From assembly GCF_026283925.1 (NCBI RefSeq), contig NZ_JAPDPF010000008.1, positions 62,001-126,000 on the forward strand: a DNA stretch of 64,000 nt. The letters are read 5' to 3'. A program made the translations under genes and the position numbers. Shown here in pieces: positions 3,026 through 7,037 of the stretch. The DNA is from Dyella halodurans (GTDB taxonomy: Bacteria > Pseudomonadota > Gammaproteobacteria > Xanthomonadales > Rhodanobacteraceae). How positions within the stretch are numbered: position 1 is the stretch's first letter; each line of letters opens with the position of its first letter. Below the pieces are notes generated by a model. That model was not told the origin of the DNA. It searched no databases and was given only the letters and a program-made list of their open reading frames with translations.

Positions 3026-3943
3026 ATGCCAGTGCGGAGCGATGTCCTTCCCGATCCATGGCCCCCTCTTGCCTACCCGGACTTCGCCAGCACCCAGTAT
3101 TTGTTCCACATGGGCCTGCAAGCGGTCGGCAAGCTGAAGCTGAAGGCGCCGTTTCAGCCGCAATGGTCGGCCGTGCCGTTATGGATTAGCGCGCGCGGGT
3201 TGACGACCGGGCCGATCGATTACGCAGGCGGAGCGTATGAAGTCAGCGCTGACCTGATCTCTCACGAACTGACATGCGTGACCAGCTGGGGCGCCGCCAA
3301 GCGCTTCAAGTTGGCGTCGATGTCGGTGGCGGAGTTTGTGGAGCAGCTCTTCGACCTTCTGCAAAACGTGGGCATCGATGTCTCCATCAACTTGATGCCG
3401 CAAGAAGTCGCCAGCCCCACGCGCTTCGACCAGGACCAACAGCAGCGCGCCTATGAGCCGGCCATGGCTAACCGCTGGTGGCGAATCCTGCTGAGCACGC
3501 AACGGGTGATGCAGATGTTCAGGGGCGGCTTCCAGGGTAAGACGCAGCCGATCGGCCTCATGTGGGGAACGCTGGATATCCGCGATGTACTCTTTAACGG
3601 CAAGCCCGCCGCACCTGCTCCCAACGCCGACTACATCCGTCGCAATGCCATGAATGCAGAGCTCATCGAGATGGGGTGGTGGGCCGGCAGTGCCGCTTAC
3701 CCCAGGCCGGCGTTCTATTCCTTCACCTATCCGCAGCCCGCGGGAATCGAAGACGCCGAAGTCAGCCCCGCGAGCGCGCACTGGGATGCAGCCATGGGCG
3801 AGTTCATCCTGGACTATGACGAGCTGCGCAAATCGAAAGACCCGGATGCTGATCTGCTGCAGTTTTTCCGCTCTGCCTTTCATGCCGGTGCCGAATGCGC
3901 GCGCTGGGATCCGCATCTCATGGGCAGCGGAAGGCCCGATTAG
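3026..3943 (+). CDS. DUF5996 family protein
   Basis: A 305-residue cytosolic protein. The opening WPPLAYPDFASTQYLFHMGLQAVGKLKL and the following PFQPQWSAVPLWISARGLTTGPI block are the hallmark of the DUF5996 family: a ~300-residue protein of unknown function with conserved Trp/Pro-rich motifs. The C-terminal AEFILDYDEL-like and ADLLQFFRSAFHAGAECARWD segments also fit this family. It is monocistronic, with no clear partner. Family assignment is good; the biochemical role is unknown. Confidence 0.85.
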   Translation: MPVRSDVLPDPWPPLAYPDFASTQYLFHMGLQAVGKLKLKAPFQPQWSAVPLWISARGLTTGPIDYAGGAYEVSADLISHELTCVTSWGAAKRFKLASMSVAEFVEQLFDLLQNVGIDVSINLMPQEVASPTRFDQDQQQRAYEPAMANRWWRILLSTQRVMQMFRGGFQGKTQPIGLMWGTLDIRDVLFNGKPAAPAPNADYIRRNAMNAELIEMGWWAGSAAYPRPAFYSFTYPQPAGIEDAEVSPASAHWDAAMGEFILDYDELRKSKDPDADLLQFFRSAFHAGAECARWDPHLMGSGRPD

Positions 3944-4099
3944 CTGATTTCCGGGCCCCATGCCGCCTGGCTGCATGGTCGGGGCAGCGGTCACCGCGGC
4001 CAATAACGGTTTTCGCCAGGCACGTCCCATGCTGCAAATAAGTGCCAAAATAAAGCGCTCTGCAGGCGTTGAACCATGTCCCTAGCGAGGGAACAGGCC

Positions 4100-5143
4100 A
4101 TGCTGGAAGTTGCGGGAACCCAAGCAGTCACGGTGGTACGCAGGATGTTTGCATCCTGGTGGGTGCCGCTTTCAGTGGTGGCCCTGGTGGCTGGCCTGCC
4201 CAGTTTGGCTTCGGCACAGGAGCAAGCTCCTCCCTTCGAATCGTTCGCGGTGCCCGCGGGCAGCGGCCCGCACGACGTCGCCCCCGCCGCTGACGGCACC
4301 GTGTGGTACACGGCGCAGGCGCGCGGTGCGGTCGGGCGGCTGGACCCTCGTCGTGGCAAGGCCGACTGGGTTCCGCTTGGCAACGGCTCAGCGCCACACG
4401 GCGTGATCGTTGGTCCAGATCAGGCGGCCTGGATTACCGACGGCGGCCAGAACGCGATCGTGCGAGTCGACCCCAAGACGCTTGCCGTCACGCGCTTCCC
4501 GTTGCCACAGGAGCGCTCGAACGCCAATCTCAACACGGCGGTCTTCGACCGGCGGGGGCACCTGTGGTTTACCGGGCAAAACGGCATCTACGGCGAACTC
4601 GATCCGGCGAGCGGCCGGATGCGCGTTTTCGATGCACCGCGCGGACGCGGGCCGTATGGCATCTGCGTGACTCCCGATGGAAACCTCTATTACGCATCGC
4701 TGGCTGGCAGCTACATCGGCCACATCGACCTGGCGAGCGGGAAGGCGCAGGTCATCGAACCGCCGACACCGAACCAGGGAGCACGACGTATTTGGTCCGA
4801 TTCGAAAGGGCGCGTCTGGGTCAGCGAGTGGACCGCAGGAAAGGTCGCCATGTTCAACCCGTCGTCGCATCAATGGCGTGAATGGCCACTGCCAGGACAC
4901 GATCCGCACGCGTACGCGATCTTCGTCGATGACCACGACATCGTCTGGTTGAGCGAATGGAGCGCCAACGTGCTGGTGCGCTTCGACCCGGGAACCGAGC
5001 GCTTCGACGCATTCACGCTACCGCGCCCAAACTCAAACGTGCGCCAGATGATGGGGCGCCGCGGAGAGGTCTGGCTGTCCGCGTCGGGTACCGATCATGT
5101 GTTGCTGTATCGAACGCGTGCGTCCGATGCCGGCAGCAAGTAA
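4100..5143 (+). CDS. Streptogramin-lyase-like (Vgb) beta-propeller, exported
   Basis: The ATG at 4100 is preferred because AGGGA lies 7 bases upstream; 4076 and 4145 are in-frame alternatives. The N-terminus has an Arg-Arg pair and a hydrophobic stretch ending in ASA/QEQ, a signal peptide, so the propeller is exported. The body is made of repeated blades with the W-x-T/S-(E/D)-x-x-x-(N/G)-x-(V/I)-x-R-x-DP pattern (AWITDGGQNAIVRVDP, VWVSEWTAGKVAMFNP, VWLSEWSANVLVRFDP), as in virginiamycin B lyase and related six- or seven-bladed propellers. Most chromosomal homologues are not proven antibiotic lyases, so a role in resistance is only a possibility. Confidence 0.8.
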   Translation: MLEVAGTQAVTVVRRMFASWWVPLSVVALVAGLPSLASAQEQAPPFESFAVPAGSGPHDVAPAADGTVWYTAQARGAVGRLDPRRGKADWVPLGNGSAPHGVIVGPDQAAWITDGGQNAIVRVDPKTLAVTRFPLPQERSNANLNTAVFDRRGHLWFTGQNGIYGELDPASGRMRVFDAPRGRGPYGICVTPDGNLYYASLAGSYIGHIDLASGKAQVIEPPTPNQGARRIWSDSKGRVWVSEWTAGKVAMFNPSSHQWREWPLPGHDPHAYAIFVDDHDIVWLSEWSANVLVRFDPGTERFDAFTLPRPNSNVRQMMGRRGEVWLSASGTDHVLLYRTRASDAGSK

Positions 5144-5246: not shown

Positions 5247-5930
5247 CTATTTGCCTTTGCCGATCCGCCAGCAGGCCTCGAGGAAGATCCGTCGTTCCTG
5301 CTCGCTGTCTATTTCGGGTGCTAGGCGCCGCGCAAGAGCATCCAGGTCGCCGCCACCCTGGGTGGCCCGACGTACCAGGTGTGCGGCCACCGGCCCGATG
5401 TGCTTCGCGAGCTCGACCTCGAGCAGGCGCAAGTGCGCCGCATCGACGCTGCCGGCCGGTTCGGCGTTATCGGCGGGCCTGGTGTCCCGCGCTGGCCGAT
5501 GTGCGGCGGGGAGGTCGTGGGCCGCGTACCCGCGGAGGGTCGTATCGAGGTAATCGCACAGGCGTGTGATGTGCGGCTCGAGTGGTGGCGGGAACGCATC
5601 CATCCAGTGCTGCGTGCTGAGAAAGTACTCCAGGCTCTTTGATGGCAGCACGTCCTCGAGCCGAAACGGCAGGATCGGCAACTGCTTGTGCACGGCCCGT
5701 TCCACCTCGCGGCGTACCTGGCCTGAGTCGTTGCTGCTGGCGGAGAACACCAGCACCATGAGCCGTGCACTGGAAATCGCATCGATGATCTCGGCGGCCC
5801 AGTCGGCGGCCGGGGATACGTCGCGCGGCGCGATCCATACCTTGATGCCGCGCGCTTCCAGTTGCTGCACGAGCGCGAACGCAGCTTCGCGATCCGGTTG
5901 CGAGTAGCTGACGAACAGGTCGTGTGGCAT
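5247..5930 (-). CDS. TIR-domain protein with C-terminal helical module
   Basis: A 227-residue protein. Residues 1-135 are a TIR domain: box 1 is DLFVSYS, followed by VWIAPRDVSP (BB-loop region). The segment QVRREVERAV places Glu75 where NAD-cleaving TIR enzymes carry their catalytic glutamate (W/V-x-x-x-E pattern). After a Pro/Ala-rich linker (about 136-165), residues 166-222 form a helical module (LLEVELAKHIGPVAAHLVRR, then LARRLAPEIDSEQERRIF). This resembles the short module seen at the C-terminus of some bacterial Ser/Thr kinases and regulators. It starts 3 bases after the stop of the membrane sensor gene, so the two are very likely co-transcribed. It could be an NADase effector or a scaffold; the sequence alone does not decide. 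Confidence 0.85.
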   Translation of the reverse strand: MPHDLFVSYSQPDREAAFALVQQLEARGIKVWIAPRDVSPAADWAAEIIDAISSARLMVLVFSASSNDSGQVRREVERAVHKQLPILPFRLEDVLPSKSLEYFLSTQHWMDAFPPPLEPHITRLCDYLDTTLRGYAAHDLPAAHRPARDTRPADNAEPAGSVDAAHLRLLEVELAKHIGPVAAHLVRRATQGGGDLDALARRLAPEIDSEQERRIFLEACWRIGKGK

Positions 5931-5933
5931 GGC

Positions 5934-6797
5934 TCAGCCGCCCAGCATCTGCAGCGCCTTGTCCAGGCTCTTGCGCATGCGGTTGAAGGCGGCCGACAAC
6001 GCCGCCACCTCGGGCCCACCGCCACGCGGGAAGTCCGCCGCTGCGGTATCGCCGAGGCTCACCTGGTCGGCTATCCGCGCGATCCGGCGTACCGGGCGAA
6101 TGACCAGCACATAGATCGAGGCGTTGACGACCAGCAGGACGCTGACGAGCATCGCGGCGATGGCAGTCAGCACCTCGCGTCGCACGCGTGCGGCATTCGC
6201 CTCCGCACTGGCGAAGGGAACCGAGATGACTTGCGCGCCGACGACCTCGTTGGGCTGCCAGCCAAAGCCATGCTCGTTGCCATAGCGTGCGAGCATGGTT
6301 GCCGGTGCTGCAGACGGCAGACTGTGACATCCCAGGCAGCCGGCATCGACGCGGATCGGGCGCGCCAGATAAAGAGCTTTGCCCATCGGCGTGTCGCGCG
6401 TCCCGCTTACTTCCCTGGTCGTGGTGTCGTTGCGGAAGCGCTGCACGATATCCGCTTCCCAGTCCGTCGCGCGGTCGCGTGGATTGGTCGGGTTGAGCGT
6501 GGCTTCCTTGTAGGAGTAGTCGGGGTGTTCTTTGTGCAGGGTGAGGAAGTTCTGTGTCGCGGCATAGAACGGCACGCTCTGCGGGCGGAACGCAGTGGCC
6601 ATCTTGTCGTCGAGTAAGGGGTCGATCTCGGTCTCGGTGTAGGAGCGGATCGCCGCAGCGCTGTCCAACATCAAGCCGGCCTGGGCGAGCACTTCACGCG
6701 TCGCGTTTTCCTGCAGCGTCGAAGTCACGATCAGGGAGATCGCCACCATGCCGAGCGCGAATGCGACTAGCAGTATCAGGTTGATCCGCAGCAGCAC
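5934..6797 (-). CDS. Membrane sensor: DUF3365 (Tll0287-like) haem domain plus HAMP
   Basis: GTG at 6797 is preferred over the longer GTG at 6839 because AAGGGGG sits about 6 bases upstream and the protein then opens directly with its first membrane segment (LLRINLILLVAFALGMVAIS). Residues 30-205 are an extracytoplasmic DUF3365/Tll0287-like domain with a C-x-x-C-H haem c attachment motif (CLGCH, about residues 154-158). A second membrane segment (about 210-233) leads into a HAMP linker (RPVRRIARIADQVSLGD) and a short helix, with no kinase or cyclase domain. Output must therefore pass to a partner, and the TIR gene follows 3 bases downstream. Proposed role: redox, oxygen or ligand sensing in the periplasm. 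Confidence 0.85.
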   Translation of the reverse strand: MLLRINLILLVAFALGMVAISLIVTSTLQENATREVLAQAGLMLDSAAAIRSYTETEIDPLLDDKMATAFRPQSVPFYAATQNFLTLHKEHPDYSYKEATLNPTNPRDRATDWEADIVQRFRNDTTTREVSGTRDTPMGKALYLARPIRVDAGCLGCHSLPSAAPATMLARYGNEHGFGWQPNEVVGAQVISVPFASAEANAARVRREVLTAIAAMLVSVLLVVNASIYVLVIRPVRRIARIADQVSLGDTAAADFPRGGGPEVAALSAAFNRMRKSLDKALQMLGG

Positions 6798-7037
6798 GCT
6801 CGACCCCCTTGTCGGATTGCCGGCCCACTGGCCCGGCACCGACGGTGTTCATGGCTGTTGGAACCTCGGTGGCGCCCTGCAAGCGCGCCACTCATGCCGC
6901 CGTGGGAAATCATGACACAAAGCGCCAGACGGGGGACCCGAGCGGTTTTCGCATGATTTCCCGTGCTCGACCGTAACGAGCCGAGTCCGATCCGCAAGGG
7001 CCGGGCTGACGACATGGGCGCTCGCCCTCGTCGGCGG

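Follow-up and report, generated by a model that had tools for sequence, protein, structure and literature searches.

A haem-Cache HAMP receptor without an output domain is paired with a TIR protein whose STAC-like tail also ends other effectors

INTRODUCTION

A HAMP receptor that lacks an output and has its STAC-type partner encoded by a gene of its own is already known from archaea. In Archaeoglobus, HAMP is the only cytosolic part of Af1503, which has no recognizable effector module, and the receptor is translationally coupled to Af1502, a STAC domain bearing an LGPx(x)A motif (PMC4834066). The same paper also places STAC in CbrA-type histidine kinases and describes stand-alone archaeal STACs that have no SLC5 transporter in cis. 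SLC5 is the usual company of the domain. Removing STAC from CbrA or from CrbS left growth without an obvious change (PMC5715377). In these SLC5-STAC histidine kinases the domain has a membrane protein on one side and a signalling output on the other, and two papers call its role unknown or unclear, in 2017 (PMC5715377) and again in 2026 (PMC13022988).

On the sensor side, DUF3365/Tll0287 has been described as a Cache domain with a covalent c-type haem. A member from P. azotoformans, with two membrane helices and a HAMP domain, formed a dimer in detergent, bound NO with a slow off-rate and gave no stable O2 complex; the axial Cys found in the redox-type member is missing from it (PMC12889525). 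Control of a separate Ser/Thr kinase by a membrane protein has been suggested for GlnX and PknG of Corynebacterium (PMC9769921). The sensor in that case is of a different kind from the one studied here. To our knowledge, neither a HAMP domain nor a STAC-like tail takes part in the GlnX/PknG system.

The locus that we describe resembles the Archaeoglobus pair in that the receptor ends at HAMP and the adjoining gene codes for a short helical domain bearing a motif of the LGPx(x)A type; the archaeal genes are translationally coupled, and those here lie 3 bases apart. It differs in that the archaeal partner is a bare domain of 60–90 aa, whereas here the domain is fused behind a TIR domain and, elsewhere, behind a kinase, a cyclase or other parts, and in that the sensor domain is a haem Cache. 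With the P. azotoformans NO sensor it shares DUF3365/Tll0287, CxxCH, the lack of an axial Cys, the two membrane helices and HAMP, but we found no discussion of a partner protein for that sensor, and the main text of the paper has 0 occurrences of ‘TIR’ and ‘operon’ (PMC12889525). In CbrA and CrbS, STAC acts in cis between a transporter and a histidine kinase, while here a STAC-like domain would stand in trans to a HAMP receptor (PMC13022988 and PMC5715377).

A preliminary description of this locus had proposed an undescribed path from a haem-type, output-less HAMP sensor to a soluble TIR protein. The conserved pairing of two such proteins stood, but ‘undescribed’ was too strong, because Af1503/Af1502 and an NO-binding haem Cache had both been described before. 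In the accessible literature on Tll0287, DUF3365, Af1502/Af1503, STAC, and HAMP with TIR or kinase, we found no HAMP receptor with a STAC-tailed TIR, kinase or cyclase. As far as that literature shows, what is new is that effectors are fused to the tail, that they are exchanged within a single sensor family, and that TIR is among them.

RESULTS

Anatomy of the receptor and TIR genes

The window, that is, the whole stretch of 64,000 nucleotides analysed, holds two adjoining genes whose features are collected in Table 1. The sensor reading frame is open to 6839 (listed as 5934–6839, minus strand). Within it, GTG 6797 is the likely start, since AAGGGGG lies six bases ahead of it and the close homologue L035 has stops in frame upstream of the matching point. 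The encoded protein consists of a first membrane helix, a haem-Cache domain (Tll0287/DUF3365), a second membrane helix and a HAMP domain, after which it stops. Pfam searches gave matches to the Tll0287-like family (E 1.7e-37, 129.5 bits against a curated cut-off of 24.1) and to HAMP (E 1.3e-7) and no output domain, so that HAMP is the sole cytosolic part of the sensor. The AF2 model (pLDDT 78.5) found Tll0287 (5b82) as its best Foldseek match, with an E value of 8.6e-8. These results agree with the preliminary description as to the GTG start (likely), the DUF3365 domain with CLGCH between two membrane segments, the HAMP without output and the TIR gene 3 bases past the sensor stop.

Table 1. 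Features of the receptor and TIR-tail genes, in positions of the window
Feature	Positions	Strand	Evidence
Output-less sensor gene, 287 aa from GTG 6797	5934..6797	minus	ORF listing, Pfam, start-site evidence
Periplasmic haem-Cache domain, about residues 29–198	6203..6713	minus	PF11845 match; AF2 model and Foldseek
CLGCH, c-type haem attachment motif, residues 154–158	6324..6338	minus	Read from sequence
HAMP, residues 232–278, protein end 9 residues on	5964..6104	minus	PF00672; profile A1 against PDB
TIR-tail protein gene, 227 aa	5247..5930	minus	ORF listing, Pfam; 3 bases from sensor stop
TIR domain, residues 1–125	5556..5930	minus	PF13676 TIR_2, E 9.2e-22; AF2 model resembles solved TIR domains
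Glu75 codon, catalytic-position Glu, QxxxE in place of WxxxE	5706..5708	minus	Alignment rows; TIR-STING alignment
Variable linker, residues 126–160	5451..5555	minus	pN/pS 0.70; pLDDT < 50 for residues 139–160 (AF2)
STAC-like tail, residues 161–227, IGPVA motif	5250..5450	minus	Tail profiles; AF2 helices

Neither the sensor nor the TIR protein has a histidine kinase or receiver domain in Pfam, as a two-component system would require. The NCBIfam histidine kinase matches were all far below cut-off and fell around the second membrane helix and HAMP.

In the TIR protein, Glu75 is invariant in the 17 aligned TIR rows, and HMMER pairs it with the Glu in the WSKFE stretch of a metazoan TIR-STING, in keeping with the catalytic position assigned to it earlier. 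The Trp of that stretch corresponds to Gln71, and Gln occupies the WxxxE Trp position in 17/17 rows; this Trp is dispensable in some TIR NADases. The SYS, WIAPRD and QHW stretches are also invariant. Judging from Glu75 and from the slow change of the TIR domain, catalysis is plausible. The tail was modelled as three helices (residues 164–191, 196–206 and 210–225) with pLDDT values of about 75–87; for comparison, STAC folds as a four-helix bundle.

Haem attachment and candidate ligands

CxxCH was present in 69 of the 73 receptor rows. The four others comprise a broken fragment (L163), a receptor that lacks the motif stretch (L146), and two with CMSCR (L045) and CATCY (L176) at this position. 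The last two are complete receptors without the haem His, and are natural tests of the need for haem. At L146, the sensor (4315–4935) lacks the CxxCH stretch, about 81 profile positions, and still lies beside a cyclase-tail gene; as the genome is a draft, an assembly error is possible. None of the 69 receptors has a Cys ahead of CxxCH in its periplasmic part, a likeness to the NO sensor of P. azotoformans. CcmH is encoded in the genome of the window. The sensor probably carries haem, and by analogy with the P. azotoformans relative this haem would be covalent and able to bind NO. The input is likely NO or a redox change, with NO as the favoured ligand on the same analogy.

Conservation of the receptor–TIR pair

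As orthologues we took nearly full-length matches of at least 70% identity in a sample of 233 genomes of the family. The TIR protein had an orthologue in 17 of them, and the sensor adjoined it in all 17. In one (G160), the TIR gene contains two stops and the sensor match is split in two. A further genome (G056) has a TIR remnant with stops only, and no sensor was found within the 3.3 kb covered. At the level of the genus, an unbroken TIR copy is present in 6 out of 20 genomes, plus one remnant. Two more distant pairs (L044 and L046) showed TIR identities of 54–55%. The pair singled out in the preliminary description is hence conserved, both in the 17 family orthologues and at these two loci. 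Another TIR pair, L043, has 87% TIR identity to that of the window and comes from a contig assigned to an Eremiobacteraeota bin, a case of either transfer or mis-binning.

Among ORFs of at least 150 aa, the sensor and TIR positions were the only ones common to all 14 TIR loci of the sensor scan presented below. When the 11 neighbour genes of the window were sought at these loci, only two weak paralogue matches appeared, both in L045, and a conserved gene neighbourhood was rejected. Five Rhodanobacter loci have flanks in common with one another. The convergent neighbour of the pair in the window, a virginiamycin B lyase-like protein (PF24684, 4076–5143), was not found beside the 14 other TIR loci.

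We also compared pN/pS across six parts of the two proteins in 12 orthologues. The TIR domain gave the lowest value (0.13), followed by the haem domain (0.15), the tail (0.18), helix 2 with HAMP (0.23) and the first membrane helix (0.28), with the linker at 0.70. Selection maintains the working parts and not the linker. From the ORFs common to the 14 loci and from these pN/pS values, the pairing of sensor and TIR protein exceeds chance.

A common tail behind exchangeable effectors

Scanning bacterial and archaeal contigs with the sensor yielded 39 loci, in groups that range from Rhodanobacter and Dyella to Polaromonas, Azoarcus, Competibacteraceae and Acidiferrobacterales. The same tail ended the neighbouring protein in all 39. 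Its front part was a TIR domain at 14 loci, a Ser/Thr kinase at 23 (9 alone and 14 with a cyclase-like part) and a class III cyclase at one (L053), while at L070 a kinase and a cyclase flank the receptor. The kinase, cyclase, TIR and HAMP labels come from small in-house profiles; Pfam, run on 12 kinase/cyclase partners, confirmed the kinase in L047, L049, L055, L056, L060, L061, L067, L145 and L173 and the cyclase in L053, L070 and L144, with a partial cyclase match beside the kinase in L047, L049 and L056. The ‘kinase-associated helical tail’ of the preliminary description is thus real, in that the same domain ends Ser/Thr kinases beside related sensors.

At three loci (L070, L142 and L143) a single receptor is flanked by tail effectors on both sides, with the Ser/Thr kinase upstream and the cyclase downstream of it, which suggests one sensor with two outputs. 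Kinases mostly carry two tandem tails, and cyclases one or two. In a tree of 55 receptors, obtained by a quick method that leaves many deep forks open and after leaving out 12 near-duplicates of 67 loci, the TIR-type receptors formed one group (SH-aLRT 100) among those of the kinase and cyclase types. Hence, at least one exchange of output has taken place. Taken by sequence, it is the tail that generalises, with TIR as one of several exchangeable outputs, a point that had been missed before.

Resemblance of the tail to STAC

The tail does not belong to a known Pfam family, as none of the 19 tails passed a cut-off (the best E value was 0.028, to unrelated families), and its position beside receptors led us to reject a chance helical stretch. 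All 19 contain GP and 17 contain GPxA; five read LGP, and the remainder IGP or VGP. The LGPx(x)A-type motif of STAC is present in the window as IGPVA. When the A6 tail profile was compared with solved structures, the two best matches tied at E 0.05, one being a TetR-type regulator and the other Af1502 (5a1q, 25 residues). With the A2 profile, whose alignment does not include L058, Af1502 was absent from the list up to E 10. The best PDB match of the sensor profile A1 was the HAMP of AF1503, with an E value of 2.4e-10. Chance is an unlikely explanation for the Af1502 match, because Af1502 is the known partner of this independently found receptor type.

Searches for SLC5 (PF00474) in 94 and 12 genomes returned no frame above 750 aa, and so there was no CbrA-type protein for comparison. 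The pair itself includes no SLC5 transporter, and genome G000 gave 0 SSF matches at 1e-10. The tail appears to resemble STAC, with a match to Af1502 that is borderline; given this, the A2 result and the lack of a CbrA-type protein, we call it STAC-like only. On this likeness rests the coupling of the sensor to a STAC-type partner, with a 3-base spacing and a STAC-like tail in the partner.

The tail and its receptors in class, phylum and plasmid samples

A strong sensor match (E<1e-50) was found in 26 of the 369 genomes of the class sample, with an adjoining tail partner in 24 of the 26. In G502, covered at the first of its sensor pieces, a kinase directly downstream is cut by the contig end. 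In G517, a kinase-tail gene lies 260 kb from the sensor.

The narrow profile A2 detected the tail in 30 class genomes at E 1e-3, and the wider A6 in 36. A6 was made with tails from the window, from class genomes G246, G264, G545, G593, G386 and G238 and from phylum genome G924, so its matches in these source genomes are by construction. The G593 tail was chosen because it lies beside a receptor, and those of the other five class genomes had first been found by A2. In these searches, at most 15–16 candidates per genome were scored for tails and at most 6 for the sensor, and misses are possible.

The tail adjoined an output-less HAMP receptor in 33 of the 36 class genomes, in either gene order, and these receptors end 0–16 residues past HAMP. 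The exceptions were G517, G522 (contig end) and G394 (CorA-like chance match); L209, CorA-like by eye, was rejected as a tail protein and taken as a false tail match. Tail genes with no receptor in view were those of G517 and G522 and the second tail piece of G524, which is also at a contig end. Conversely, no tail partner was in view for the receptors of a cyanobacterial plasmid locus (L249) and of L177 in G575 and for the second partial sensor of G479. L177 encodes, at 5612–6574, a haem-Cache-HAMP protein with neither output nor tail partner, and its opposite-strand neighbour is a receiver-kinase fusion.

Receptors outside the haem family accounted for 7 of the 33 genomes (G246, G264, G274, G545, G387, G498 and G594), and G446 and G325 have non-haem pairs alongside haem pairs. 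All ten non-haem receptors were above the Pfam HAMP cut-off. dCache_1 was above cut-off in L170, L171 and L206 and below it in L172, L203, L204 and L205, while the periplasmic part of L207, L208 and L210 is short and cannot be placed clearly in any family. By eye, their tail partners are PATAN/DUF4388-like or, in L171, roadblock-like. The PATAN/DUF4388-like proteins beside output-less HAMP receptors are those of L170, L172, L178, L203–L208 and L210, mostly non-haem, with L178 of the haem type; Pfam placed DUF4388 below cut-off in L172, L203, L204, L205 and L178, and gave no DUF4388 match in L170, L206, L207, L208 and L210. The roadblock-like front of the L171 protein (3665–4336), beside a dCache-HAMP receptor, had no Pfam match. 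L163 (475–1029) encodes a 185-aa tail protein with an ACT-like front, for which a Pfam ACT-like family gave E 0.003, below cut-off.

In the phylum sample, five of 398 genomes, including that of the window, had the tail at E 1e-5, all of them beside a receptor. Among plasmid records, nine had a sensor relative at E 1e-15 and none a copy of the TIR protein at E 1e-8. We examined regions from six of the nine (all but H3, H8 and H9), and in five of the six the gene directly after that of a DUF3365 protein is annotated as a Ser/Thr kinase and carries two tails; the remaining region is the cyanobacterial L249 locus mentioned above. Three of the five plasmid kinase loci have the type VI secretion genes tagF and tssM close by, and a fourth (L248) has hcp, tssC and tssB in its vicinity. 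The kinase version occurs in or by type VI secretion clusters at L246, L247, L248 and L251, as annotated, and at L060 and L072, by eye. A PP2C phosphatase is present at the type VI-linked kinase loci L247 and L251.

DISCUSSION

We propose, with a probability of roughly 0.7, that the two genes encode a split receptor, in which a HAMP domain without an output of its own acts in trans on a STAC-like domain that carries an exchangeable effector, here TIR. The periplasmic haem Cache would sense NO, another haem ligand or a redox change, and the second membrane helix would relay the signal to HAMP, which has no attached output. The STAC-like tail of the neighbouring gene's TIR protein would then be the docking site, in trans, for the end of HAMP. 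Since the receptor should be a dimer and a TIR protein brings a single tail, each receptor dimer would gather or release two TIR domains. This would switch TIR–TIR assembly, and with it NAD+ cleavage or a scaffold. Most kinases have two tails and, by copy number, could bind as monomers. The anatomy, the conserved pairing and the common tail behind different effectors can be read from the sequences analysed here; from them we infer the docking, the direction of control and the TIR activity. Against the proposal weigh the borderline match of the tail to Af1502, the lack of an SLC5 transporter in the pair, the CbrA and CrbS deletions cited above, the receptors and tail genes with no partner in view, the two complete receptors that have lost the haem His, and Gln71 in the TIR domain.

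A broader reading, which we favour by a small margin, is that the STAC-like domain serves HAMP ends as a general plug. It would dock any fused effector in trans, be it TIR, Ser/Thr kinase, class III cyclase, PATAN-like, ACT-like or roadblock-like, and one receptor would be able to drive two of them.

One could argue that the TIR protein is a catalytically inactive scaffold, recruited to the membrane by the receptor in order to gather partners, with no NAD chemistry. The Gln that replaces the WxxxE Trp in 17/17 rows is consistent with this, and so is the presence of the tail behind parts that look non-enzymatic (PATAN-, roadblock- and ACT-like), assigned mostly by eye with Pfam matches below threshold or none. 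However, Glu75 and the SYS, WIAPRD and QHW stretches do not vary, and none of the other five parts had a pN/pS as low as that of the TIR domain, 0.13. We hold the scaffold to be a real but secondary possibility.

It is rather unlikely that the genes are merely co-transcribed and that the tail has another role, such as effector dimerisation, instead of docking on HAMP. The tandem double tails frequent in kinases could indeed serve oligomer formation, but in 33/36 genomes the tail goes with output-less HAMP receptors, whose sensor parts come from unrelated families and whose genes may lie on either side of it.

Bacterial TIR NADases are common in defence. Together with the patchy distribution of the TIR gene (6/20 genus genomes with an unbroken copy, and one remnant), this could point to an anti-phage or abortive-infection device, in which a membrane sensor of envelope damage triggers NAD depletion by TIR, but such a device is improbable, as PADLOC matches reach the TIR part only (the best being SAVED_TIR, 5e-8, residues 4–81) with 0 matches for the sensor, relatives of the sensor serve kinases and cyclases, several of them in type VI secretion clusters, and the neighbours in the window look metabolic, by eye only. 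Thoeris and other TIR defence systems were rejected on the same partial TIR matches and the lack of a sensor match in PADLOC.

Compared with TIR NADases such as SARM1 and the bacterial defence TIRs, the TIR protein described here shares the TIR fold and the catalytic-position Glu, and differs in that its control is proposed to come from a haem sensor in the periplasm, by way of a separate receptor. A TIR protein under such a sensor would lie outside the known defence systems tested here. The natural fusions place recognisable enzymes ahead of a STAC-like tail, and each of them is an assay for the effect of HAMP on STAC, so that both the role of STAC and the effector question of Af1503 become testable by ordinary means. 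If the STAC-like domain does act as such a general plug, Af1503/Af1502 and STAC would gain a function, and TIR chemistry would be added to periplasmic gas sensing. The tail would be a modular, ready-made part for wiring sensors to outputs, and swappable outputs may be a general form of receptor wiring.
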